From positions 1 to 59,329 of IMG/VR virus record IMGVR_UViG_3300009034_000040: a stretch of 59,329 nucleotides of DNA; one strand, written 5' to 3'. Positions 12,853 to 41,826 of the stretch are shown piece after piece (within the stretch, counting starts at the first letter, position 1; each line of letters starts with the position of its first letter). Source of the stretch: a virus. The notes under the pieces were generated by a model that ran no database searches, was not told the origin of the DNA, and saw nothing but the letters and a program-made list of their open reading frames with translations. Made by a program: the position numbers and the translations under genes.

Positions 12853-13968
12853 CTACTTAAGGTCTACTAGTTTTCCATGTGCGTCAAACCTATAAGCCCG
12901 AAGCTCTGCCATCGTATCGTACATTCCTTCAATAGCATATAGCGATCTGTAAAGGAACCCTGCTCCTCTACCTGTCTCAGAATACGTAGTTGGTTTAGCT
13001 ATTGCTAGTTTCAAGTAGTCTGTATCTAGGAAGTAAATAGTTCCCAGTGTATCCTGTAGTTCACAGTGTTGACTAGGAATGATAGGTATACCAAAGTAAG
13101 TAGCAACCATGAACCCTGCCTCTACACCACCAGGTGCAAAGCTTCGTACTCCACCAAAGGTAGGTACTACACGTGCAGCATCCATGAATCTACGTTCAGC
13201 CTCTAGCAACTGTTGCCACCTCATCAAAGTATTAGTTCTTGTAACTATTACTTTTGGTTGACCACCGTTATCTAGAACGTTCTGGTACACAGTATCTATC
13301 AATGTCAAGGTTAGATCTCTATCTGTGTTGTCGTTCTCATTAACGTAAGCATCCCATGCAGTTCCAGTAGAACGTGCTGTATTACCGTAGATATTTGCAT
13401 CAGTAGATGCTGTACATCGGTTAGCTCCTTCCTCATTACTAGAAACCACACGGTCAATAGTCTCAAAGTTAGTTCCTGCTGGATCGTCATCTACGTCTTC
13501 ACCTAGAGCTTTGTTAATACAGAAAGCATGCTCTTTAGCTATTTCTTCTCTATAGAATGGAAGCAAATCAATAGCATCGTCTATTCCACCAAGGAACTCT
13601 GCTAATTCACCTATATCGAATGTATGTGCCATCCTCTTAGGCTTAGCACTTACTTGAACAAAGGTTAGTGTTAGAGGATCCGGTACTGCTCCACCAGTTG
13701 TAGATTCACTAACTCCTCCACCAGCTGTATGAGCAGCAGTAGTAAGTACACGCCAACCTGTCTTTACCCAAGGTTCCTTAGGTAATAGAGCAAATATATT
13801 AGCTTCTAGATTAAGCCAACTCCAAGCTTTCTTACCGTATATAGGTTCCCAATGAGTACCTGAACCAGCTGCTTCCGATACCTCAACTGCCTTACGAAGC
13901 ATATTAGTACCTGGATAGTAGTAGGCCATCATTTCTTCCATCGTTTGGAAGGTTCTTAGTTTTTGCAT
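12853..13968 (-). CDS. Major capsid protein, HK97 fold
   Basis: The 371-residue product follows prohead protease and scaffold genes, the standard order. Its sequence fits HK97-type capsid proteins: an N-terminal arm, an E-loop region (KTGWRVLTTAAHTAGGGVSE), a spine helix (ELAEFLGGIDDAIDLLPFYREEIAKE), P-domain strands and an A-domain segment (YFGIPIIPSQH) near the end. An EEGAN-containing insert lies in the middle. It starts at ATG 13968 behind AGGAGAGAG and ends with TAG. Confidence 0.85.
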   Translation of the reverse strand: MQKLRTFQTMEEMMAYYYPGTNMLRKAVEVSEAAGSGTHWEPIYGKKAWSWLNLEANIFALLPKEPWVKTGWRVLTTAAHTAGGGVSESTTGGAVPDPLTLTFVQVSAKPKRMAHTFDIGELAEFLGGIDDAIDLLPFYREEIAKEHAFCINKALGEDVDDDPAGTNFETIDRVVSSNEEGANRCTASTDANIYGNTARSTGTAWDAYVNENDNTDRDLTLTLIDTVYQNVLDNGGQPKVIVTRTNTLMRWQQLLEAERRFMDAARVVPTFGGVRSFAPGGVEAGFMVATYFGIPIIPSQHCELQDTLGTIYFLDTDYLKLAIAKPTTYSETGRGAGFLYRSLYAIEGMYDTMAELRAYRFDAHGKLVDLK

Positions 13969-14578: not shown

Positions 14579-15736
14579 TTAGAGTAAGTGTGACAGAGCA
14601 ATATCTAACTCCTTTAATTTACTCTTAATAATAACCTTATTAACTGGACAACTAGATATCGAAACATTTATTGATTCCAATATTGCCTTTATCTTTTCTA
14701 AAGAGACTAATGATATATCAAAGTCTGCTTTCTTTCTTTCTTCTTCCTCTTCGTAAGGGCAAGGTTTCATAACCATTTCTTTCTTCTTTAAAGGTGATCT
14801 CAAAATTACTAAATCATGGAGATCGTAATAATCTGTAAATGGTCCTAAACCTGAAGGTTCGTGTATAATATGAATATCATTCCAAAGATCTAATCTGCCT
14901 TGTTTTCTAAGTTCATTATAGATTCTAGTCTGAATAGCTCTATCTATAAATGAACCTTTCTTAGCTGTAATTAAAAGATCGAAGTCATGTCCTTTACCTA
15001 ATTCAGCTGTGCTTCCTGCTAGTTTAGTGACCCCTGGACTAATAATCATGTTAGGAAGTGTATCTGATAGTTCAGCTAGTTTTCTTAATCTCTCTCCCTT
15101 AAGAATCTTAAACACTGAAGGTTGATTAGCTGGTCTATCAACAATAGCTACTTCATGAAGCTCCATCTTTTCAATACGTGTAAAACACTTACCTTCGCAG
15201 ACCGTACTAGAAGCTAGTGCTTCACCACCAATACTAAAGCCAGTGTATCTCCCGTCTTCTATTCCTTGCCAGGTTTGTTTTCCTTTTTCAATGTCTTGTC
15301 GTATTTCCCCAACAATGAAAAGACCGTTATCATCTACACCACTTTTCCAAATCTGTTTATCACTGTCTTCGTACTTATCTAGAATCTTAAATACAGGAAT
15401 GTTAGTATGCATTAAAGAACCAAAGTAGAAATCTTTATTTTTCTTAAAGTCTACCCAAGCTTCTTTAAGTACTGGTATAGGAATTAACTCGTTCTGTGAA
15501 TCTATTACCTCTACAGAAGCATAACCAGCTATGATGTTTCTCCCTTGATCCTTAAACTTCTTAGCTATAGGAAAGGAGAACACCCAAGGTGTCTGTATTT
15601 CTGGTTTAGGTAACTGATCTAACAACGTCTGTACTATATCACTTTTAAATATCTCTTTTCCCTCATTGAGAGGGTTAGACCCAGTAGCAAGGGTGTCTGG
15701 TTCATTACTACTGAGTCCACAAGAACAAGACGACAT
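14579..15736 (-). CDS. Prohead protease (XkdF-like) fused to a nucleotidyltransferase-like domain
   Basis: Residues 50-210 match XkdF-type prohead serine proteases: GYASVEVIDSQ, a SLMHTN segment with a candidate catalytic histidine (about 110), TGFSIGGEAL with a candidate serine (about 168) and the diagnostic LHEVAIVDRPAN. Residues 235-315 are unexpected: AGSTAELGKGHDFDLLI has the GS and DxD spacing of pol-beta-type nucleotidyltransferases, with a further NDIHII strand that could give the third acid. The last 60 residues are helical. The gene starts at ATG 15736, diverges from the plus-strand regulator cassette, and has an inverted repeat over its ribosome site. The protease processes the prohead; the extra domain has no known role there. 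Confidence 0.75.
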   Translation of the reverse strand: MSSCSCGLSSNEPDTLATGSNPLNEGKEIFKSDIVQTLLDQLPKPEIQTPWVFSFPIAKKFKDQGRNIIAGYASVEVIDSQNELIPIPVLKEAWVDFKKNKDFYFGSLMHTNIPVFKILDKYEDSDKQIWKSGVDDNGLFIVGEIRQDIEKGKQTWQGIEDGRYTGFSIGGEALASSTVCEGKCFTRIEKMELHEVAIVDRPANQPSVFKILKGERLRKLAELSDTLPNMIISPGVTKLAGSTAELGKGHDFDLLITAKKGSFIDRAIQTRIYNELRKQGRLDLWNDIHIIHEPSGLGPFTDYYDLHDLVILRSPLKKKEMVMKPCPYEEEEERKKADFDISLVSLEKIKAILESINVSISSCPVNKVIIKSKLKELDIALSHLL

Positions 15737-17819: not shown

Positions 17820-18017
17820 CTAATCCTCTTCTTCTTCCTCAGTATATCTAGGACTCCAAGTTCCTTCTTGTTGTTTCTTTTCTTTTTTCTTTAAAAGTAC
17901 CCAAGCTTCTTTCTGAAGTTTACCTTTCTCATCATATTCATGTACTACTTTCCACTTAGCAATATCTTTCGTAGTCTTGTTATGTTTATTATCTAGATAT
18001 AATACTTTTATAGACAT
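17820..18017 (-). CDS. Small charged protein, 65 residues
   Basis: The product has a strand-rich start (SIKVLYLDN), a WKVVHEYDEKGKLQKEAWVLL middle that resembles the first strands of the phosphoesterase protein encoded upstream, and a poly-glutamate tail. ATG overlaps the TAA of that gene (TAATG-type). Function unknown; it may be a companion of its neighbour. Confidence 0.5.
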   Translation of the reverse strand: MSIKVLYLDNKHNKTTKDIAKWKVVHEYDEKGKLQKEAWVLLKKKEKKQQEGTWSPRYTEEEEED

Positions 18018-19570
18018 TACTTCTCACCTGTCATACGCTTTAAATATTTAAGAAAAATCCCGTCAACTTGTTTACTTCTACCTGATTTATGAAATCCATA
18101 ACATTCTGCAAAAGCTTCTTCAGCACCTTTCATATAAGCATAATCAGAAGGAAACTTATAACCCATCTTAATTCCTCTATGATAAACATTTTCCCATTCA
18201 CGCCTATCACTAGAACTAAGTCGTTCCCATTTGCTATGGGCTACTTCATGAAATACTACTCTATTTAATTCAGGATCTGTCAAGTACTTACGTTCTAATC
18301 TCATCTCACCAGTTGATTTGCTAAAAGTTGCATCAGCACTAATTCTCTCACCACCTATTGAAAAGACATCTGCCTCATCTACTACGCTAATCTTTTTTAC
18401 ACCTTCTAAATCTTCTTTAGGCAATCTATTTAACACTGATTCTACTATATGTGTTTCTACTTCATCCTTTTGACCCTCTATCCTATACCCTTTAGGCTTA
18501 GGTTTTTTAGCATATTGTTCCGCTAATTCTCTAGTACGACTCCTAATTTTCTCAGGTACTTTCTCCCAATCTGTAATTTCCACACAGATATGTTGACCAT
18601 CATCAGTTATCCATTTACCTCCCGCTTGACTACACCAATCCTCAGCCTTACGTTCTGCTCTAGCTCTAGCTACCTCTTGCTCTATATCCTCTCTAGCTTG
18701 TGGTGAAGGTTGCTTAATCCAATCTATCTTCCAATAACCTTCATCCTCATGCTCTACTGGATCTAAAGGTTTCTGGTCTTCAGGTTTCATAAACAACCAT
18801 GCCCAATGCTTATACTCCTTACCTATCTTTAACTTGCGAAGTACAAACCTACCTTTCAGTTCTTTGCCATAGAAGAAGTACTCATGTAAATCCTTACGTT
18901 GTACTCCGTACTTAACTTCTCCTTTATCAAGTATCTCCATCCTAGCTATCTCTATGTAACGAGCTACTTCTTTCTCTTCTGGTGGTTCAGTATGTCTAGT
19001 TGGAAACCGTAACTCTCCTTCTCTAGTTAACCATTCCTTAGGATGTACATGTTTAGGTGTTGCTTGAGTTCTCTGAGCTGGCTTAAGCCTTTCTTTAAAA
19101 GCTCCCCAACTACTTATTCCTTCTGGCACTGGAGGATGTAGAGTCACACCTATTAACTTACCGTTTATTTCCATTCGTAAATCTATGTGATCTCTAATCT
19201 TCATTATCCTAAATAGTTCTTTCTTTAACGAACTGTTCTCTAACCACTGAACTATCTCATTAGAACATTCCTCTAGTAAACCTAAACCTTTATGCATCTC
19301 CTCAGGTTTTTCTCCTGGCTTAATCCTTTCTTTCCTTCCTGTAGGCCAATGTCTCTGTAGTACAAATGTAGTCTTCTGTTTAGACTTCCACTTATAGTAC
19401 TTCTCTGGTAAAGGTTCTCCTTCTTTAGCTAACTCTTCGTAATCTGGTAACTTCTTAGCTTTCTTAACTTCCTTCTTAACTATGAAGAATTCTCTAATTG
19501 TTCTTCCTTCTTTATCTTCTTCTCTTAACCAAGTACCTTTATTAGTTTTAAATTCCTTAATCTTTACCAC
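18017..19570 (-). CDS. LigD-type 3'-phosphoesterase domain fused to a zincin protease
   Basis: The 517-residue product has three parts. Residues 65-290 resemble the LigD phosphoesterase: FVLQRH with candidate catalytic His74, then after an insert of about 50 residues DHIDLRMEINGKL with His128, Asp130 and Arg132, and the later KGRFVLRKL and WAWLFMKPE strands. The known enzyme trims 3' ends before non-homologous end joining. Residues 311-330 carry a WC..GGKWIT..G.HICV module shared with the next gene. Residues 330-517 hold VVFHEVAH (441-445) and EEAFAECY (484-491), an HExxH-plus-E zinc peptidase pattern. GTG start overlaps the ligase gene by 14 bases. Placed in the head gene cluster, it may be packaged. 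Confidence 0.7.
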   Translation of the reverse strand: MVKIKEFKTNKGTWLREEDKEGRTIREFFIVKKEVKKAKKLPDYEELAKEGEPLPEKYYKWKSKQKTTFVLQRHWPTGRKERIKPGEKPEEMHKGLGLLEECSNEIVQWLENSSLKKELFRIMKIRDHIDLRMEINGKLIGVTLHPPVPEGISSWGAFKERLKPAQRTQATPKHVHPKEWLTREGELRFPTRHTEPPEEKEVARYIEIARMEILDKGEVKYGVQRKDLHEYFFYGKELKGRFVLRKLKIGKEYKHWAWLFMKPEDQKPLDPVEHEDEGYWKIDWIKQPSPQAREDIEQEVARARAERKAEDWCSQAGGKWITDDGQHICVEITDWEKVPEKIRSRTRELAEQYAKKPKPKGYRIEGQKDEVETHIVESVLNRLPKEDLEGVKKISVVDEADVFSIGGERISADATFSKSTGEMRLERKYLTDPELNRVVFHEVAHSKWERLSSSDRREWENVYHRGIKMGYKFPSDYAYMKGAEEAFAECYGFHKSGRSKQVDGIFLKYLKRMTGEK

Positions 19571-21506
19571 TTAAATATTCCTCCATAAACTTATAAGTCT
19601 TAGGATTTCTTAATTTAACCCCAGCTGGATCTTTTTTATACCAAACAAAGGCTTCAGCAAACCCTTCATCCCAATTAACATTAGCATACTTACTAACCTT
19701 TTCTTCTTTCCAAACAGTTTCAGTCCAACGATTCGCCGTTTCATAATCTTGTGGTGCAACTACATGACCAAATTCATGATAGATAGTTTCTTTAGTTGAA
19801 CCCTTAAAAAATCCCATTTCTTTAGTTCTTTTATCATAATAACCACCTACAAAAGGCATTCCATATTTTTTATATTCTGAAGGAACTTCTTTACCTTTAG
19901 ATCGATAAAACTCATCTAAAGTATAAGGCTCTCGACTAATTCTAATATAGTCTACTCGCTTCTTTTTTTTCTCTGGTAAATGATTATATAAAGAACTTAC
20001 TTCATCTACTGTTTCCCTTCTTCCAACATCAAATATCAATTTAGTCTTATGATCTCTAGAAATTAAAGTTCTCTCAGTTAATCCTTCCCCTAAATCTCTA
20101 TCCTCTCCTATACATATATGCTTCCCCTCAACAGTTATCCACTTCCCACCCTGCTCACTACACCAATCAGCCTTCTCTACCTCTCTAGGCAAAGTTAATC
20201 CGCTAAGTCTCATAAGAACGTTCATCGAATCAGGTCTATTACGTTCTCTCACATGCTCTAAAACCTTAGGCTCAAAAACACCAAATGTGTAACAATCAGT
20301 TCCCTCTATCTTATATCTATTAACCTCAGGAGTGAAAACTCTAATTATATCTCCAACCTTAACTTTAATAGAAGTATTAAATGTCTTACCGAAATATGCC
20401 CAAGTCTTCCCTTTCAACTCTATTACTTTCTTAGGTTTCTTCTCTTTAACTACAGAAGCACATTCCTTAGAATACGGTCCAGCAGCTATATGGTAATTAT
20501 ACACACCAACTATAGGCTTCCCTTCTAAAGGTCCCTTCTTGTGCTTAGGTTGCTCTATATCCACAACTATACAATCTATCTCTTTAAGGTTCTTCAGTTT
20601 AAACCAAGTCTTGTTATGAGCTATGTCCTTAGCAGCCTTAATGTACTTACCCTCTAAAGTTTTAATCATAGCTCCCTCAGAACCCTTCATAGCTCTAACC
20701 TTCTTGATGGCTGCTAGTAATTCTTTCTCAGTCTTACATATAAACCCTCTCTTACCTATTACGGTAGGCTTCAAATGTTTAGTAGTCTTAATCTTCTTTA
20801 AGTAATCAAGTCGTTCTTTATACGGTAAATCTCTTAAGTCTTTTCCTTCCCAGTAAAGTACGTCAAATACCCAGAACTGAGATTGTTCGTCTTTTTCCTC
20901 TAAGTATTCCTTTCCGTTAGCGTAACCTATAAAACTAGTTCTATGTAAGACTTGATCGTTTACAACTAATACTCCTTCTGAATCTACTACTGTTCCTTTA
21001 GGTAATGCCTCATTAATATCAGTTACAGCTTTCTTAAACTTATTAGACTTCTTAAATCCTTCATCCTCTGAGAATAGTTCTACTGTATTACTCTTATGTA
21101 TCTGAATCCTCATGCCGTCTATCTTTATATCTACATAAGCTGGTAGGCTAAAGTCTTTATCATCAAATAGTTCTTTAGCTTCAAATATCCTTGTTGCTGG
21201 TTTATTAGGTTTAACAAAACTACCTACTCCTTTCTTTAAGCATTTATCCAGTGGGTGATTAGTCCAAAACCACTTATCATATCTACTTAATGTTTCTGTC
21301 GCTACTTCTTTATAACGCTTCTCTATTTTGCTTCTTATCTCTGGATGTCTATCCCATGCAGTTCTAAGTCTAGCTATTTCAAATGTTAAGTACTTCCAAC
21401 TCTTTCTCTTTAAACTGTTATTCAAGACTGTAATAGTCTCCGCTTCATTAACTTCTTTATCTGTGCATCCGTGTAGTATTTCCTTAAGTTCTCTAGCTTC
21501 TGCCAT
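19557..21506 (-). CDS. ATP-dependent DNA ligase fused to a zincin protease
   Basis: The 649-residue product carries a full ligase core: motif I KIDGMR with Lys128 as the AMP site, DSEGVL (motif III), FDVLYWEG (IIIa), EGAMIK (IV) and WFKLK (V), then an OB fold to about 425. A linker with WC..GGKWIT..G.HICI (448-467) leads to a C-terminal domain with IYHEFGHVV (HExxH at 577-581) and DEGFAEAF (614-621), a gluzincin-like peptidase. The fusion is unusual. It overlaps the gene before by 85 bases, so the exact start is uncertain, but the catalytic core is unaffected. It is paired with the phosphoesterase gene and lies between MuF and capsid genes. Confidence 0.85.
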   Translation of the reverse strand: MAEARELKEILHGCTDKEVNEAETITVLNNSLKRKSWKYLTFEIARLRTAWDRHPEIRSKIEKRYKEVATETLSRYDKWFWTNHPLDKCLKKGVGSFVKPNKPATRIFEAKELFDDKDFSLPAYVDIKIDGMRIQIHKSNTVELFSEDEGFKKSNKFKKAVTDINEALPKGTVVDSEGVLVVNDQVLHRTSFIGYANGKEYLEEKDEQSQFWVFDVLYWEGKDLRDLPYKERLDYLKKIKTTKHLKPTVIGKRGFICKTEKELLAAIKKVRAMKGSEGAMIKTLEGKYIKAAKDIAHNKTWFKLKNLKEIDCIVVDIEQPKHKKGPLEGKPIVGVYNYHIAAGPYSKECASVVKEKKPKKVIELKGKTWAYFGKTFNTSIKVKVGDIIRVFTPEVNRYKIEGTDCYTFGVFEPKVLEHVRERNRPDSMNVLMRLSGLTLPREVEKADWCSEQGGKWITVEGKHICIGEDRDLGEGLTERTLISRDHKTKLIFDVGRRETVDEVSSLYNHLPEKKKKRVDYIRISREPYTLDEFYRSKGKEVPSEYKKYGMPFVGGYYDKRTKEMGFFKGSTKETIYHEFGHVVAPQDYETANRWTETVWKEEKVSKYANVNWDEGFAEAFVWYKKDPAGVKLRNPKTYKFMEEYLSGKD

Positions 21507-21778
21507 GACTCTAACATTATCTGTTTATTAGTCTTAGGTTGAGTACGTCTTTTATCGGTGTTCATCAGTTCTTGTTTAGTCAAGGTCTTCTCATAGATTC
21601 CTTTACCTATCTGTGCTCCACACTTCCTACACCATAGAATAGGTACACCATTCATAACTCTAGTTTCTAGGTAACTTCCTCCTTTCCCTCGATGTAAACC
21701 TGATTTGCAAGCAAGAGGTTTATCGAAAGCTCTAGGATGAGTAATCATCTTATATCCAGGTCTTACGAATATTGGCAA
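21422..21778 (-). CDS. Zinc-binding protein, 118 residues
   Basis: The product has a C...C..H region (ACKSGLHRGKGG) and WCRKCG, which together could bind zinc, followed by a basic helical tail. It starts with TTG at 21778. Its last 85 bases overlap the 5' end of the ligase gene in another frame. Function unknown. Confidence 0.5.
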   Translation of the reverse strand: MPIFVRPGYKMITHPRAFDKPLACKSGLHRGKGGSYLETRVMNGVPILWCRKCGAQIGKGIYEKTLTKQELMNTDKRRTQPKTNKQIMLESWQKLENLRKYYTDAQIKKLMKRRLLQS

Positions 21779-22530: not shown

Positions 22531-22806
22531 TTAACCTCTAAAGAATATATCCCACATACAGCGACATGAAGGATGTGAAGGCATCCTAGGTAAGAACATT
22601 CCTGTATGGTATCTCCTACCATTCTGACTGTCACAGTAGTTACACGTACGTGCATCAATCACAGATACCCACATTAACTCCTTAAACCCTGCTTCTCTAA
22701 ATGCTCCTTTCAAAGCTCCATTGTAAGTTCTAAGACTGAAGTCGTGTGCTAAGTCCTCCATGCGAATTAGAATTCCCTTGTCTGAAGTCCAAAATTCTTC
22801 TGACAT
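22531..22806 (-). CDS. MuF / SPP1 gp7-type minor head domain, stand-alone
   Basis: The 91-residue product holds the diagnostic C-terminal signature of the phage Mu F / SPP1 gp7 family: WVSVIDARTCNYCDSQNG ... MPSHPSCRC. Full members have 250 or more residues with a long helical N-terminus, absent here. That helical part may be the C-terminal end of the unusually long portal protein. The domain usually works at the portal during head assembly and DNA ejection. Confidence 0.8.
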   Translation of the reverse strand: MSEEFWTSDKGILIRMEDLAHDFSLRTYNGALKGAFREAGFKELMWVSVIDARTCNYCDSQNGRRYHTGMFLPRMPSHPSCRCMWDIFFRG

Positions 22807-25654: not shown

Positions 25655-28153
25655 TCACCTCTTCTTAACTCCTCTCAAACTATCATAAAGTATTTTATGA
25701 AAATCATCTAAACTATTCTGTTTATAAATCTCTATTCTTTTTATCTCTTCTGGACTCAGCCCAACCTTCTTTCTAGTTCTTCGCTCTGCATGTTTTAAAG
25801 CTCTCTTAGTTAATTCACTGTAAGACTTCTCCATCGTTTGTTTAGCTTTAACCATTGCTTCGTTAACTACTATTCCTTTCTGTTTACCGTCCTTTACTTG
25901 TTTAATTGCCCAATCTTTAATTTTTATTAGTTTCTTGTAGAGTGTGCTTTCATCATGAACTACACCGAAAGGTGCTCTGGCTTGAATAATGCTCTTTCTC
26001 TCTATAGGCTCTGGCATCTCTGTAGGTTCTGATCCAGCTGGACTCTCTAAAGGTGAAAACTTAATTCTGCTAAGTCTATATCTAAGGTTATCTATCTTCT
26101 GACCTAACCACTCAAGCTTAATACTGTCAAAGTAGTTAGCTAGTTCTATTAGTAGTTTAGGATTGAATTCTCTACGTGTATTAGTTAGTAACCGTTTAAC
26201 TCCTGCATCATAGTCATCCTCATTGAATCCCACACCTTCCAGTTTAGTTTTTACGAATCCTAACAGTTGTTCTAGAAGGTTAGATATCGCTAGGTTTAAT
26301 TTAGTAGCTGATGTTCTAGTTCCTTCTATTTCATGTTCATTAATCGTTATGTATACCTCATTTTGATCGCTGTTAATAGCAAATACCTTATCCCATACCC
26401 GTATCTGTGTTGCTGAATACCAACTAATCGGTAGAGGACTCGCTAAGTCTGTTCTCTCTGCTAACTCTAATCTTTCACCACTAGTTCTAGTAGGTTCTCC
26501 TTCTTCAAACTCTTCTGGTTTACCACCCATATCTCTAGGCTTCTCTCCAAATCTAGAACCGAACGGTTCTCCTTCTTGTAGTTTAGCTTTACCAGTAATC
26601 TTCAATTCTTCATTCTCATCTATTACCACATCAAATCCTGCTCTAGCTCCCTGTAAAGCAGTAGCCATCTTTGTATGTAATGTCTGAGCATCTCTTAGTT
26701 TGTCTCTTCCTCTAATAGGTGGAAAATCTAATAACCAATCTGTAATACCGAACTTAGGTAATATTCCGTAATTCCATAACTCTTTAAAGTTAGTCTGGTG
26801 TTCCTGAGTTGTTCTATCTTGAACCTCTATCTTAAGTTTATGTTGACCTCCCGGCTCTGAAACACTTACAAACTCAGCCGTAACCCCGTATACTTCTCCT
26901 ATAGCATTAATGTACTTCGCATAGAACTCTAAAGATTGCATAGCCTTAAGATCTTCCATGATAGGAAGTCGTATTGGATGCTGATCCTTCTTCAAACCTA
27001 TAAATAAAGTTCTAATAGCTGGACTAGTTCTATACCTCCCTGTAGTAATGTCTTCTTGATCTAAAGATTGTAATTCTTCTTCAATAGCAGTTTTCTTAGC
27101 AGCTATTTCTACATCATCATCTCCAGGGAATCCTATTATAGAACCTACCTTTCCTTTACTGTAAACTTCCCAATTATAATTATCCATTGCTGCAACTGTC
27201 TGTATAGGCTTCCAAATGCTTACTATTTTAGGATTACCGAATAGTCTAGGTTTAACTCCTGAACTAGAACCATGAACTATTTCCCCTGGTCCAAACCTAG
27301 CTAATACTACACCTGACACTTCCTGTACGTAGTAAGTCTGAATCATAGGCCCATTACAGTACTCACAAATCTTAAGTCTCTCTTGTTGTTCAGAAGGCAT
27401 CTCCGGCATTATCTGCACTACTGGCATATCCTGTTTCTTAAACTGTTCAGAATCATAACAATTAGGACAGAACCATTCATAACCTCCTAAATGACCTAAC
27501 TCATCTGCTATAGGAAAGAAGTATCTAGCATCCTCAATATAAACCTCAAAAGGTTTCTTATCATATACTACTCTTCCTTCTGATATAACAGTTCTCATCA
27601 ATCCTGTCTTAAGATCTCTCTCGCTCTTAGGTAGGTACTTATAAGCTACTCCTAAATACTGTTCATCTAATGCTAAATCATAAAACAAAGCAGAACGATA
27701 TAAATCTCTAAATGAATAATCCCTGTTAGGTCTACTTATTAGTCTATCAAATTCCTTAGCTTGTTCTTCTGAAGGAACCCTTAACTTACTACCACAACTA
27801 TCACACTTATTATCTTTAGGTGTCTCTTTAAATTCCTTACCACAGTCTTCCTTCTTACACTTCCACTTAAACTTAGGTACTCGTAAAGGCTTCTCTCTTG
27901 AACACTCCTGAATGATAGCTCTAAATGCTCTCCTTAAAGGCCATGAAGTAGTAGCTACCTCAAATAGGTTTACATAATCGTAGAAAGGTCTTCTTATTTG
28001 TGGTTGAGGCTCAAACACGAATGTAGGTTGTACAGGTGTAGTCTTCTGTATCTTTATTCCTATTCGATTACCTAACCATGTAAGGAGTCTTTCTCTTCTA
28101 GTTAATTTAGTTTCTTTCTTCTCTATTTTTAAACTCTTACTGCGTTTACTCAA
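25655..28153 (-). CDS. Portal protein with two zinc-ribbon inserts
   Basis: The 832-residue product follows the terminase region and precedes MuF, the usual portal slot. It shows portal-like helical stretches (SWPLRRAFRAIIQECSRE, GNPKIVSIWKPIQTVAAMDN, the tunnel-loop-like GEVYGVTAEFVSVSEPGG). Two inserts carry four-cysteine zinc ribbons: CKKEDC ... CDSC near residues 74-100 and CPNC ... CEYC near 230-290. The last 200 residues are helical and lysine-rich, like the N-terminal part of MuF proteins, and may complement the truncated MuF gene. TTG start overlapping TGA of the gene before. It forms the DNA entry ring. Confidence 0.75.
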   Translation of the reverse strand: MSKRSKSLKIEKKETKLTRRERLLTWLGNRIGIKIQKTTPVQPTFVFEPQPQIRRPFYDYVNLFEVATTSWPLRRAFRAIIQECSREKPLRVPKFKWKCKKEDCGKEFKETPKDNKCDSCGSKLRVPSEEQAKEFDRLISRPNRDYSFRDLYRSALFYDLALDEQYLGVAYKYLPKSERDLKTGLMRTVISEGRVVYDKKPFEVYIEDARYFFPIADELGHLGGYEWFCPNCYDSEQFKKQDMPVVQIMPEMPSEQQERLKICEYCNGPMIQTYYVQEVSGVVLARFGPGEIVHGSSSGVKPRLFGNPKIVSIWKPIQTVAAMDNYNWEVYSKGKVGSIIGFPGDDDVEIAAKKTAIEEELQSLDQEDITTGRYRTSPAIRTLFIGLKKDQHPIRLPIMEDLKAMQSLEFYAKYINAIGEVYGVTAEFVSVSEPGGQHKLKIEVQDRTTQEHQTNFKELWNYGILPKFGITDWLLDFPPIRGRDKLRDAQTLHTKMATALQGARAGFDVVIDENEELKITGKAKLQEGEPFGSRFGEKPRDMGGKPEEFEEGEPTRTSGERLELAERTDLASPLPISWYSATQIRVWDKVFAINSDQNEVYITINEHEIEGTRTSATKLNLAISNLLEQLLGFVKTKLEGVGFNEDDYDAGVKRLLTNTRREFNPKLLIELANYFDSIKLEWLGQKIDNLRYRLSRIKFSPLESPAGSEPTEMPEPIERKSIIQARAPFGVVHDESTLYKKLIKIKDWAIKQVKDGKQKGIVVNEAMVKAKQTMEKSYSELTKRALKHAERRTRKKVGLSPEEIKRIEIYKQNSLDDFHKILYDSLRGVKKR

Positions 28154-31231: not shown

Positions 31232-32089
31232 TTAATTTACCAAACAATTCTTTAATTTTTCACCTAAGTATTCTATAACATTAACTGTAACTGCATTTCC
31301 TAAACACTTATACCGTTGCGTATCACTTAACCATCTAGTCCAATTATCAGGGAATCCTTGTAATCTTTCCCATTCTACAGGAATTGAATACCTAACCTTT
31401 TCAACTAACTTACCATCACTCTGAACTATTTTTATACCTATTAAATTTCTTTCTTTAAAACTTCCTCCAACACCCAATGAATATGCAACCCGTATCCGTG
31501 ACCTTTCTCTTTGTGTCGATTTCTCCGCTTCACCAAAGTTTTGATTAATTTTTGAGATAGGAAATATTTCTTTGGTACGTCTGTCTCTAAGATGTCCTCC
31601 AATAAACACTCTTTCCCTATGTTGGGGAACCCCAAAATATTCGCTGTTAAGTACTTGCCATTCACACCAATACCCCAATTCATCCAACGATTCAAGAATG
31701 ACTTGGAATGTAAATCCTTCATCGTGACTGAGAAGCCCTTTAACGTTTTCAAGCAATAAAAATGAAGGTTTTTTAACTTTCGCAATTCTACATATCTCAT
31801 AGAATAATGTTCCACGAGTATCTTGGAAACCTTTACGCTTTTCTTGTGCAATTGAAAAAGGTTGACAAGGAAATCCAGCAGTGAGCAATGTGTGTTCTGG
31901 TATTCTGTCTGTGTTTTTCTTTCTGATGTCTCCTTCATCTAATTCATTCCACCCAAAGTGTATCTTATATATTTTATTAGCGTACTTATTATTGTCATTT
32001 GCCCACACACACTTCCAACCACTTCTTTCTAGCCCTAACCTAAAACCACCTATACCACTAAACATCTCTATAAAAGTTAATTCATCCAA
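31232..32089 (-). CDS. C5 cytosine DNA methyltransferase
   Basis: The 285-residue product has all main motifs: FIEMFSGIGGFRLGLE (I), AGFPCQPFS with the catalytic cysteine (IV), LLENVKGLL (VI), VPQHRERVFIGG (VIII) and YKCLGNAVTVNV (X). The target recognition region is short. It starts with TTG at 32089 next to the MazG-like gene. No restriction enzyme is adjacent, so it most likely protects viral DNA from host restriction. Confidence 0.93.
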   Translation of the reverse strand: MDELTFIEMFSGIGGFRLGLERSGWKCVWANDNNKYANKIYKIHFGWNELDEGDIRKKNTDRIPEHTLLTAGFPCQPFSIAQEKRKGFQDTRGTLFYEICRIAKVKKPSFLLLENVKGLLSHDEGFTFQVILESLDELGYWCEWQVLNSEYFGVPQHRERVFIGGHLRDRRTKEIFPISKINQNFGEAEKSTQRERSRIRVAYSLGVGGSFKERNLIGIKIVQSDGKLVEKVRYSIPVEWERLQGFPDNWTRWLSDTQRYKCLGNAVTVNVIEYLGEKLKNCLVN

Positions 32090-39112: not shown

Positions 39113-40642
39113 TCATATCACCTTACTATTACAGAAACGCTTATTTAAGCATTCCCCTTGTTCAGTCTTGAAAGAACAGTTACCTTCATAACTGCATTTA
39201 GCTCCAGTAGACTTTACAATTTTCTTTACAGAAGTAATAACTTTCTTACTGCTCTCATGCTTAACTATAGGAACGTTACCTAGCCTTGCACTAGCAATCT
39301 TACAGTACTCTTCATTAAGCTCTATTCCTATCCACTTACGGTTAAGTCTCTGAGCAGCTATACAGGTTGTACCACTACCTACAAATGGATCTAAAACTAT
39401 TCCGTCTTTGTGGCATCCTAATTCTATAAGATACGCCATAAGTTTAATAGGCTTAACTGTAGGATGAACATTTTGTTGTTTGCTTACTCCTGTTCCTTTT
39501 GTTCTATGAGCACCATTTGAGCATTTATGTAAAGATTGGTCGCCAAAATTACCCATTGTCCGTTTCTCTTTAATTGTTAAATCTTCAAGTCCATCATTGC
39601 GTTCTTGTTTGCTCGCCTTCGGCACATCCAAAAACCCATGATGCTCAGCCCAAGCATCTAAGTCAAAGTAACGACTCTGATCGCCCGTATCATTATAACC
39701 CCTTTCTGTAGGTAAAACATCATATAAGTTATATATTCCTTTACTTCCAGTCGGAGGTAAACTGCTTCCCTTCACTTTCTTACTCTTTGTTATTTTCCCC
39801 GTGTCTAAAGCTTTATCACTCACTAAAAGATTACTTGGGAACCGTCCTTGAATATTAGGTTTACTAAGTAATGCTTTATCTCCAGTTACACCAAAGTTTT
39901 CAGTAGCTCCCACAGTTTTTGAATGTCTTCCTTGCCATCCTCGTTTAGTAGGATCAGTTTTCCAATTACACGGTATCCTACAAGCATCCACATTAATAGC
40001 TCCCGTTCCATGCTTCAACACGTTATCAACTATAGTCTTCTCGCTTAACGGTTTGTTCACCATAAGTATACATTCTAATGCTGGTTTTAATCCTGTAATG
40101 GATTTCCAACCTTGCCATTTCTTAGAACCTTCACATACTGGTTCAGTAATTGCTCCTACTTTTTGACCATCAGTTTCTTTATATTTTCCATATTTATGTC
40201 CAGCTTCTTCTCCTTTTGTAGAATGTTCATATCCATATCGGTAACGAGGATCAGATTTAACACCGATAGTTTTACGTTTAAGTTTAAACTTTCGATCTAT
40301 CCCCTTACTAACACAGTAAGCTTTCGGAAATCCTGTCTTATAGATCCAACTAACAAAACTCTGTCTAAGTTGAAACCCACACTCTTCTAACATCCTAAGC
40401 ATCCTCCATAACACATCCTGCCTAGGACTACTCATAACAAACGCTAATGCTCCTGGCTTAAGAACTCTATACATTTGTTTAAATGCTTCTATATCTGGTA
40501 AGGCTTTATCCCATAACTTACCCATGAAAGCTATTCCATAGGGAGGATCTGTTACAACATAGTCTATACTATCATTAGGAATAGACTTTAAAACTTCTAC
40601 ACAATCACCGTTATGAATCTTACTTATCCATTCATCTAACAC
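39113..40642 (-). CDS. Beta-class DNA methyltransferase (N6-adenine or N4-cytosine)
   Basis: The 509-residue product has DYVVTDPPYGI (motif IV) near the N-terminus and VLDPFVGSGTTCIAA plus WIGIELNEEYC (motif I and following) near the C-terminus, the beta-class order. The large middle region (about 200 residues) with GAINVDACRIP and WGRFPSNLLVS-like segments is the target-recognition part. A cysteine-rich tail ends the protein. GTG start. No partner nuclease is seen; it probably protects viral DNA together with the C5 enzyme. Confidence 0.9.
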   Translation of the reverse strand: MLDEWISKIHNGDCVEVLKSIPNDSIDYVVTDPPYGIAFMGKLWDKALPDIEAFKQMYRVLKPGALAFVMSSPRQDVLWRMLRMLEECGFQLRQSFVSWIYKTGFPKAYCVSKGIDRKFKLKRKTIGVKSDPRYRYGYEHSTKGEEAGHKYGKYKETDGQKVGAITEPVCEGSKKWQGWKSITGLKPALECILMVNKPLSEKTIVDNVLKHGTGAINVDACRIPCNWKTDPTKRGWQGRHSKTVGATENFGVTGDKALLSKPNIQGRFPSNLLVSDKALDTGKITKSKKVKGSSLPPTGSKGIYNLYDVLPTERGYNDTGDQSRYFDLDAWAEHHGFLDVPKASKQERNDGLEDLTIKEKRTMGNFGDQSLHKCSNGAHRTKGTGVSKQQNVHPTVKPIKLMAYLIELGCHKDGIVLDPFVGSGTTCIAAQRLNRKWIGIELNEEYCKIASARLGNVPIVKHESSKKVITSVKKIVKSTGAKCSYEGNCSFKTEQGECLNKRFCNSKVI

Positions 40643-40973
40643 TTCTATATTTCTCCCTTAATCTTCCTGTTCGAGGTAACACCCGTAGTTTTCTATTACA
40701 ATACCTATAAGGACAGTAAGCAGTATTTAAGTTCTTACCTAACCATCTGATTTGATCTATATGAATTCTACCATGTCTAGAACAAGTAGCATATAGATAG
40801 AATACTCCTTTCCTAATAGAGAAGTGATTCCTAACTAACCCTAGCTTAACTGCTTTCTGTTCTATAGCTTTCTTAGTTCTATCAGGGAACAACTGCATGA
40901 GTTCAGTCCAGCTAACACTGTTATATCTAAGTCTTAACAAAGCTATATCTTGCTTGCTCCATCGTTTACCCAA
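40632..40973 (-). CDS. SANT/Myb-like DNA-binding protein, 113 residues
   Basis: The N-terminus reads WSKQDIALLRLRYNSVSWTE-type helices followed by RTKKAIEQKAVKLGL, the pattern of Myb/GcrA-like helix-turn-helix proteins. The second half is basic with CPYRYCNRK and a TCSRHG motif that may bind zinc. TTG start overlaps the stop of the ligase gene. A transcription or DNA-structure role is likely. Confidence 0.65.
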   Translation of the reverse strand: MGKRWSKQDIALLRLRYNSVSWTELMQLFPDRTKKAIEQKAVKLGLVRNHFSIRKGVFYLYATCSRHGRIHIDQIRWLGKNLNTAYCPYRYCNRKLRVLPRTGRLREKYRSVR

Positions 40974-41826
40974 CTAGATTGCTTCCTATTAACTTCTCCT
41001 CTAAATATTTCTGGTAGTATTTAAACATCTTAATTGGAGGAGTACATATATGCTTCTTAGCTTCTTTACTTATTGATTGAGCAACTAAAGGCATAGCTAT
41101 TTTAACATCTTTAAACTTTTCTAATCCTAAGTCTACAAATACTTTATCTATAGCTCCATATGTCTCTGACTCTGGTAATACAGGAAGTAAAGGCTTATCA
41201 TTTTCGATACGAATCTTTTTAGGTCTAGGTGGGTCATCAAGTTTGGCTTTAGCATAAATATATTCTTTACCGTACCAAGTCTTTAATACAACTCCTTCTC
41301 TACCTTTCTCCTTTGCTAACTTCAACATTTCATCTCTGAACTTTAATAAACTCTTTATACTTCTATGTTTAGATTCTCCCCATTGCTCAACTATTGGAAT
41401 TCTCCACTGATAACAATACTGATAAATTCTGTTATAAGGTAAGAAGTGTTCTTCATTCAAATACCACATGTCAAATATTATATATTCTTCTTTATCATGT
41501 AATTCAAATCTAGCTGGACTCTTACCTTTAGATAGTAATTCACCGAATATTATTAGTTCTGTGTTCCAATCTTTACGTTGATTAAGAAGTAAATCTTTAA
41601 TTTTAGAATATTCTTCAGTTCGTTTTAATATTGCTTGTAAATCCTTAGAGGCTTCTTTCATTCTACGACTAGAAATAATTAGTTTATTCTTTTCATCTAA
41701 CCATGTAGCAATGCATGAACCATCACGCTTCTCAAACCAGTAGATTAATTTACCTAATAAAATTCTAGGATTAGGTCTAATATGATTAATACTGGGTATT
41801 TCTAGATAACTCCATTCTTTACCCAT
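40966..41826 (-). CDS. Polynucleotide (RNA) ligase, nucleotidyltransferase fold
   Basis: The 286-residue product has WFEKRDGS (motif I, KxDG with the adenylated lysine at about 34), IIFGELL (III), YIIFDMWY (IIIa), EGVVLKTW (IV) and YAKAKLD (V). No OB domain follows; instead a helical end, as in Rnl2-type RNA ligases. It may repair tRNA or RNA breaks or join DNA. It lies between polymerase B and a DNA-binding protein, apart from the DNA ligase in the head cluster. Confidence 0.8.
   Translation of the reverse strand: MGKEWSYLEIPSINHIRPNPRILLGKLIYWFEKRDGSCIATWLDEKNKLIISSRRMKEASKDLQAILKRTEEYSKIKDLLLNQRKDWNTELIIFGELLSKGKSPARFELHDKEEYIIFDMWYLNEEHFLPYNRIYQYCYQWRIPIVEQWGESKHRSIKSLLKFRDEMLKLAKEKGREGVVLKTWYGKEYIYAKAKLDDPPRPKKIRIENDKPLLPVLPESETYGAIDKVFVDLGLEKFKDVKIAMPLVAQSISKEAKKHICTPPIKMFKYYQKYLEEKLIGSNLVG

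Follow-up and report, generated by a model that had tools for sequence, protein, structure and literature searches.

A DNA ligase, a LigD-type 3´-phosphoesterase and a predicted nucleotidyltransferase recur together among viral head genes

Introduction

Why would a virus keep enzymes for the repair of DNA ends among the genes that build its head? The question is raised by IMGVR_UViG_3300009034_000040, the record of an uncultured tailed virus, 59,329 nt long and analyzed here at its full length (the window), in which adjacent genes encode an ATP-dependent DNA ligase and a LigD-type 3´-phosphoesterase (PE). Little is known of the way in which tailed viruses of archaea mend and close their linear genomes. 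We report here that the two enzymes, together with a predicted nucleotidyltransferase (NTase), form a triad found in ten architectures (Table 1; L numbers denote loci or contigs compared with the window). The presence of all three among head genes, often fused to the capsid protease, would fit a repair kit carried along with the viral genome. The reading we prefer, to which we give about an even chance (roughly 0.5), is a head-associated, Ku-independent kit for the repair of DNA ends or nicks, which would be packaged with the genome and act on entry.

A DNA ligase and a LigD-type phosphoesterase are encoded between head genes

Both open reading frames (ORFs) were confirmed on the minus strand (Table 2), where, as an initial annotation of the sequence had it, they are adjacent and overlap (by 14 nt) within a dense run of genes on that strand. 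Their neighbors were confirmed as well: the pair lies between MuF and the prohead protease, ~20 kb away from PolB and apart from the replication genes at ~41-50 kb.

For the ligase, PF01068 matched aa 122-305 above its cut-off (E=1.8e-21) and the NCBIfam model NHEJ_ligase_lig matched at 7e-20. Motifs I (KIDGMR), IV (EGAMIK) and V (WFKLK) are kept, bearing out the ATP ligase core first recognized from KIDGMR. The protein is 45% identical to the L011 ligase, and its best matches in the PDB are archaeal and eukaryotic DNA ligases. By these comparisons its identity as an ATP-dependent DNA ligase is well supported; its start possibly lies ~28 codons downstream, judging from the relatives and from the 85-nt overlap of the listed ATG with the gene for a 118-aa protein.

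The window PE protein alone gave no Pfam match and no score on PF13298 or TIGR02777. It shares 43% identity with the L011 PE part across 271 aa (6e-58), and the L007 homologue matches PF13298 (LigD_N) at 1.4e-5, with 31.2 bits for a cut-off of 31.1 when the neighboring stretch is included, and TIGR02777 at 7.3e-7, which is below that family's cut-off. An AlphaFold model built from a six-sequence alignment had an overall pLDDT of 53, with values mostly >70 in the core at aa 65-262. When this model was compared with the PDB using Foldseek at E<=1e-3, all seven matches were LigD phosphoesterases, including 3p43, 3p4h, 3n9d, 3n9b, 5dmp and 2lj6, and the top match was the archaeal 3p43 (E=1.3e-8, TM 0.79 normalized by target). 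The active-site residues H42, H48, D50, R52, H84 and Y88 of the Pseudomonas enzyme (PMC8656161) align with H74, H128, D130, R132, H176 and W180 of the window protein. The metal-binding set H74/H128/D130 is kept, as are Q72, R132 and H176; the substitution of W180 for Tyr88 is a real departure from the Pseudomonas enzyme. With the fold, the catalytic residues and a scoring relative in agreement, the assignment to LigD_PE originally made from QRH and HxDxR held, and the modeled protein is well supported as a LigD-type 3´-phosphoesterase.

A predicted nucleotidyltransferase completes a recurring triad

Relatives were found by scanning for DNA that could encode HEYFxxGxxxxGRF, a motif of the PE, and then by profile-guided scans. 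Hidden Markov models (HMMs) of the three domains, built only from L009, L007, L034, L035 and the virus ANMV-1 with the window excluded, were used to scan 4716 ORFs. In the window these models detected the ligase (2.6e-44), the PE (8.5e-15) and, at the C terminus of the prohead protease, the NTase (2.2e-8). The triad is therefore split there over three genes of one cluster, and a third partner had been missed next to the two activities initially described.

The window protease-NTase is 45-47% identical to that of L011, and all 11 sequences compared keep the G-G-D-D signature of the NTase (motifs G[GS] and DxD) without change. In hhalign, the NTase profile matched MNT-type NTases with E=3.6e-4 and a score of 27.7, compared with 15.0 for the best of 30 column shuffles. 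PF01909 matched two members at 0.025; against the PDB, the profile gave no meaningful match by sequence. We predict, with moderate confidence, that the C-terminal domain of the protease is a Pol-beta-type NTase.

Table 1. Arrangements of the triad in the window and its relatives
Architecture	Members	Order of domains and genes
1	Window	protease-NTase, ligase-zincin, PE-zincin
2	L047	protease-NTase, ligase-zincin, free zincin, PE preceded by a short segment like the L011 N terminus
3	L049	protease-NTase, ligase-PE
4	L006/L008/L011/L013	protease-NTase, metallo-beta-lactamase-ligase-PE
5	L059-L061	kind as in architecture 4, more distant
6	ANMV-1	NTase-ligase-PE in one 866-aa protein, between portal and MuF-ended protein
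7	L009	portal, MuF, then NTase-ligase-PE-Dam
8	L007/L014	NTase joined to TGT-like domain; ligase-PE-PE; scaffold-like and capsid genes after these
9	L033/L034	terminase, portal, one 1652-aa protein: TGT-like, NTase, ligase, PE, second PE-like
10	L035 (L036, L041 identical)	one 2226-aa protein: TGT-like, Dam, NTase, PE, second PE-like, ligase, prohead protease

Each of the ten architectures adjoins a portal, MuF, prohead protease or capsid gene, and the placement of ligase and PE in the head block holds in every relative with readable flanks; homologues confined to separate replication genes away from head genes were not encountered. Fusions of protease and NTase are confirmed in the window and L011 groups. 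At the far side of the triad, the prohead protease ending the L035 polyprotein was confirmed (PF14550, 5.5e-18); in the L007 and L033 polyproteins a putative C-terminal protease would suit the position and had no family match in the libraries, which leaves L035 as the sole confirmed fusion on that side. The L009 and ANMV-1 proteins are joined by a single continuous tblastn alignment across NTase-ligase-PE (E=2e-72). The second PE-like domains of Table 1 are putative.

Several relatives carry additional domains or insertions. The N-terminal parts of L009, L007 and L033 weakly match pyrimidine dimer DNA glycosylase (PF03013, 1.9e-5 in L009), which suggests a further DNA repair-like domain in these polypeptides. 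In the 1144-aa protein of the L006-L013 family, the metallo-beta-lactamase domain ahead of the ligase occupies aa 285-450 (PF12706, 1e-10). LAGLIDADG-type sequence lies beside the NTase gene in L007:3-1877 and L014:3106-6359; the L014 NTase is divided between two frames, and an insertion is present in the terminase region of L014 too.

In genome contigs the PE pattern returned one true relative, L025, a contig of a Thermoplasmata metagenome-assembled genome. The other genome-contig matches, and L010, L012 and L015, were discarded as unrelated proteins by their translations. Short exact peptides of the window proteins gave no direct relatives in viral contigs, and the ANMV-1 protein as query returned none. 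Among isolated phages only ANMV-1 matches ligase and PE beyond the ordinary ligase core, and among plasmids only the ordinary LigD ligase was seen, in two Rhizobium plasmids. The window PolB is closest to haloarchaeal tailed viruses (24% identity) and the terminase to Streptomyces phages (25-26% identity); the host of the window virus is likely archaeal.

The triad polypeptides also bear TGT/DpdA-like and Dam domains, which would act on DNA, in keeping with the reading we prefer. On the RNA side, the TGT-like domains have queuine tRNA-ribosyltransferases as relatives, 3´ ribonucleotides are among the groups that PE enzymes take off (PMC8656161), and addition of nucleotides to RNA would be within reach of a Pol-beta-type NTase, all of which would suit a triad that mends host or viral tRNAs cut by host anticodon nucleases, as T4 Pnkp/Rnl1 do. 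We consider such RNA repair highly improbable, however, as the ligase belongs to a DNA-ligase family by both PF01068 and NHEJ_ligase_lig and resembles DNA ligases of known structure, an RNA-ligase-family gene stands apart from it in the window, and no tRNA genes were found there.

The same fusions could point to an injected kit whose main task is to repair breaks left by restriction or other nucleases of the host, in concert with DNA modification enzymes. The triad is fused to a Dam-type methyltransferase in L009, to Dam and TGT-like domains in L035 and to a DpdA/TGT-like domain in L034; the window has two DNA methyltransferases, one of them beside the terminase; and polyvalent proteins have been proposed to counter restriction (PMC5512222). 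The triad of the window itself is not fused to a modification enzyme, however, and no defense system was matched. An anti-defense role, which overlaps the reading we prefer and differs from it in the source of the damage, thus seems decidedly unlikely.

Zincins, preceded by a shared tag, are optional cassettes

The initial annotation described each enzyme as fused to a C-terminal HExxH...EAFAE peptidase domain. The HExxH motifs lie at 18236-18250 (PE) and 19764-19778 (ligase); EAFAE was found as described on the PE side, and the ligase side has EGFAE. In isolation, the ligase-side C terminus scores as an ATLF zincin (28.0 bits vs a cut-off of 27.4). The PE-side zincin-like domain had no direct Pfam match; it matches the L047 ligase-zincin at 7.6e-12, and the ligase-side zincin of the window matches that L047 zincin too. 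Given an AlphaFold confidence of <50, we make no structural claim for it. The ligase-zincin fusion recurs in L047, which also has a free zincin gene and a PE with no zincin. Zincins are absent from L049 and from L011, where a metallo-beta-lactamase is present instead. The zincins are thus optional cassettes and not the conserved core, and the unit that these sequences keep in common is NTase, ligase and PE.

In many unrelated viral contigs, at some sites beside MuF, the tag GGxW[IV]TxxGxH[IV][YFCW] stands ahead of zincins or of other domains that look like effectors; it was in frame at 22 of the 29 loci with the pattern (L062-L090). GGxW[IV]TxxGxH[IV] may be a general cargo or processing tag.

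These fusions bear on where the enzymes work. Mending of nicks and dirty 3´ ends in replicated DNA late in infection, just before or during packaging, in the cell or at the portal and not in the virion, would equally lead one to expect the location of the genes and the fusion to a protease if the enzymes work at the prohead. The activities of ligase and PE suit nick repair, and the record's sole other ligase-family gene is RNA-ligase-like and lies in the replication block. Presence in the same polypeptide as the prohead protease, and zincin/tag cassettes of a kind common to effector-like head proteins, fit internal cargo better, which makes late intracellular repair rather unlikely.

The triad is lost jointly and is under purifying selection

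In two relatives, an intact ligase, the PE and the NTase on the protease are all gone. In L052 (63 kb), only the N terminus of the ligase precedes the tag and an NTase-like stretch, and no ligase or PE was found in the whole record. In L070 (59 kb), a ligase truncated before the OB part is joined to a zincin, a Pol-beta-type NTase has a gene of its own, and no PE was found in the record. The prohead proteases of both are without the triad NTase domain. As L052 and L070 share one sampling project, these joint losses are two cases at most.

Between close relatives of architectures 2 and 4, dN/dS was 0.038-0.052, which shows purifying selection. In L060:2037-6086, an in-frame, intein-like insertion of 311 aa of LAGLIDADG type (CLSGNS...VFHN|C) follows the ligase stretch EGAMII...NPQW, at motif V. 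Inteins favor conserved active sites.

The enzymes are tied to the head by three things: their common location, the fusion to the protease and the joint loss. Tailed-virus gene order can be mosaic, and an acquired LigD-like cassette might have come to rest among head genes without having anything to do with the virion, but the placement persists across ten architectures, in which portals and fusion orders differ, alongside the protease fusion and the joint loss. Chance residence is thus scarcely credible, and we rejected an unrelated cassette because the head location is kept in all groups.

Gene neighborhood in the window

The remaining features are listed with the triad in Table 2. A glycosyltransferase-like gene and small ORFs fill the interval from the PE gene to the protease gene. 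An acidic tail, EGxWSPxYxxxEEEED, is common to the 65-aa ORF of the window and the NTase-like gene of L052 (L052:5560-6303).

Table 2. Coordinates of the features discussed, all in the window
Feature	Position	Strand	Evidence or remark
Ligase-zincin gene, 649 aa	19557..21506	-	ATG start listed
ATP-dependent DNA ligase adenylation and OB region, aa 96-434	20205..21221	-	PF01068, HMM, L011 identity
Tag motif WCSEQGGKW(IT) ahead of ligase-side zincin	20139..20165	-	
C-terminal tag and lethal-factor-like (ATLF) zincin of ligase gene, aa 447-649	19560..20168	-	HEFGH...EGFAE
PE-zincin gene, 517 aa	18017..19570	-	GTG start
LigD 3´-phosphoesterase domain, aa 65-262	18785..19378	-	Foldseek, HMM, alignment
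Second copy of tag motif, PE gene	18611..18637	-	
C-terminal tag and zincin-like domain of PE gene, aa 311-517	18020..18640	-	HEVAH...EAFAE
Prohead protease with C-terminal NTase, 385 aa	14579..15736	-	PF04586 2.9e-8; TIGR01543 5e-7
Predicted Pol-beta-superfamily NTase domain, aa 223-321	14774..15070	-	HMM 2.2e-8; AGST...GHDFDLLI...YDLHDLV
Major capsid protein, HK97 fold, SU10-like	12853..13968	-	PF17236 5.2e-9; phrog_24667 1.3e-29
65-aa ORF adjoining PE gene, acidic tail	17820..18017	-	ORF list; EGTWSPRYTEEEEED
118-aa cysteine-rich protein	21422..21778	-	Directly upstream of ligase, kept in the window's relatives
MuF C-terminal-type minor head protein	22531..22806	-	PF04233 3.7e-4; phrog_241 9.8e-10
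Portal protein	25655..28153	-	phrog_18178 2.6e-12; 39% identity to L011 portal
C5-cytosine methyltransferase, directly beside terminase gene	31232..32089	-	
N6/N4 methyltransferase, in replication block	39113..40642	-	
RNA-ligase-family gene adjoining PolB	40966..41826	-	PF09414 1.8e-10

Proposed function

The enzymes would be made late and brought into the prohead, either through the protease fusion or through tags and association with the portal and MuF. The prohead protease, and in the window also the zincins, would then cut them free, and the freed enzymes would remain with the DNA in the head and pass into the cell along with it. There the PE could restore a 3´-OH by taking off 3´-phosphates or terminal ribonucleotides, the NTase could add or fill in a nucleotide, and the ligase could seal nicks or join the ends of the incoming linear genome without Ku. 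The activity of the NTase, packaging, proteolytic release, the timing and DNA as the substrate are the parts of this proposal that we infer.

Several observations weigh against such a kit. The lysine of motif IV is missing in the L009 and L011 ligases, and the equivalent of PE H84 is missing in L007, L009 and ANMV-1, so some of the viral versions may not be fully active. The AlphaFold model of the NTase was of low confidence and Foldseek gave no significant fold match for it; the identity of this domain thus rests on motifs and profile comparison. The window is a linear record with no end repeats. Finally, neither the window nor any of seven relative records, fragments among them, matched PF02735 (Ku) at E<=1, which leaves the bridging of ends unexplained.

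The last point decides how the system should be named. The initial annotation had likened the two activities to those of LigD-style end joining, and with no Ku found the classical LigD system is not what the window encodes. In addition, Pfam and NCBIfam showed no POL domain of the archaeo-eukaryotic primase (AEP) type in the ligase and PE proteins, the conserved partner being predicted as Pol-beta/MNT-like. With these two defining features of LigD systems wanting, the triad should not be called non-homologous end joining (NHEJ), and it may act in LigD-like fashion on ends or nicks. A bolder version, in which a virion-borne, Ku-independent end-joining machine is released by the capsid protease and zincins and cleans, extends and seals or circularizes the genome on entry, is somewhat doubtful; if it is correct, viruses would have evolved their own counterpart of LigD, entirely viral, as part of the program that assembles the head.

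For the kit that we prefer, the link of ligase, PE and NTase to the capsid protease predicts that DNA repair enzymes travel in the capsid. DNA end repair would then join the list of activities delivered from the head, and the triad would offer biochemistry a Ku-independent, LigD-like system.

Comparison with known systems

The triad resembles LigD and archaeo-prokaryotic NHEJ in the fold and active site of the PE, in the ATP-dependent DNA ligase core, in having a third, nucleotide-adding activity (here predicted) and in domains that are fused or co-encoded. It differs in that the POL of LigD is AEP-type whereas the third viral domain is predicted to be Pol-beta/MNT-like, in that those systems have Ku, and in its location in head clusters, where its fusion partners are prohead protease, zincin, metallo-beta-lactamase, Dam or TGT-like domains. 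Archaea rarely have prokaryotic NHEJ (PMC7719229).

Full-text literature searches for a head-encoded combination of ligase, PE and NTase found no description, with subscription papers mostly outside their coverage. Mycobacteriophages that depend on NHEJ reportedly supply Ku and use the LigD of the host; in the present case ligase, PE and NTase come from the virus itself, and no Ku was found. The likeness lies in the joining of phage genome ends after entry, since some of those phages need NHEJ for circularization of the genome (Pitcher et al., 2006, cited in PMC3898472).

The initial annotation knew of no described system that couples ligase and PE to zincins in a virus head. A parent class does exist: polyvalent head proteins are multi-enzyme polypeptides with zincins and C-terminal assemblin-like proteases that are packaged in heads (Iyer et al., 2017, PMC5512222). 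Like these proteins and MuF-linked cargo, the triad polypeptides lie beside MuF or portal genes, combine several enzymes and may include zincins and a C-terminal capsid protease, and the class also contains DNA methyltransferase domains and Pol-beta-superfamily NTases (PMC5512222). As far as genes alone tell, the triad also has the feature of the class of being encoded among head genes and fused to virion-associated domains. The main text of PMC5512222 names RNA ligases only and no DNA ligase or LigD PE. The class also has few archaeal cases (PMC5512222), whereas the triad recurs in archaeal-type viruses with DNA end repair as its proposed core.

An already described relative is AJP62006 of ANMV-1 (KP703175), a methane-seep virus with an inferred archaeal host (PMC4372165, the main text of which is silent on this protein). 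AJP62006 has the homologous NTase-ligase-PE in one protein, encoded between the portal and a protein that ends in a MuF-type motif, and it has no zincin. Annotated only as 'ATP-dependent DNA ligase', it is now linked to a wider module. Collectively, these comparisons place the triad as an added form of phage polyvalent head cargo.

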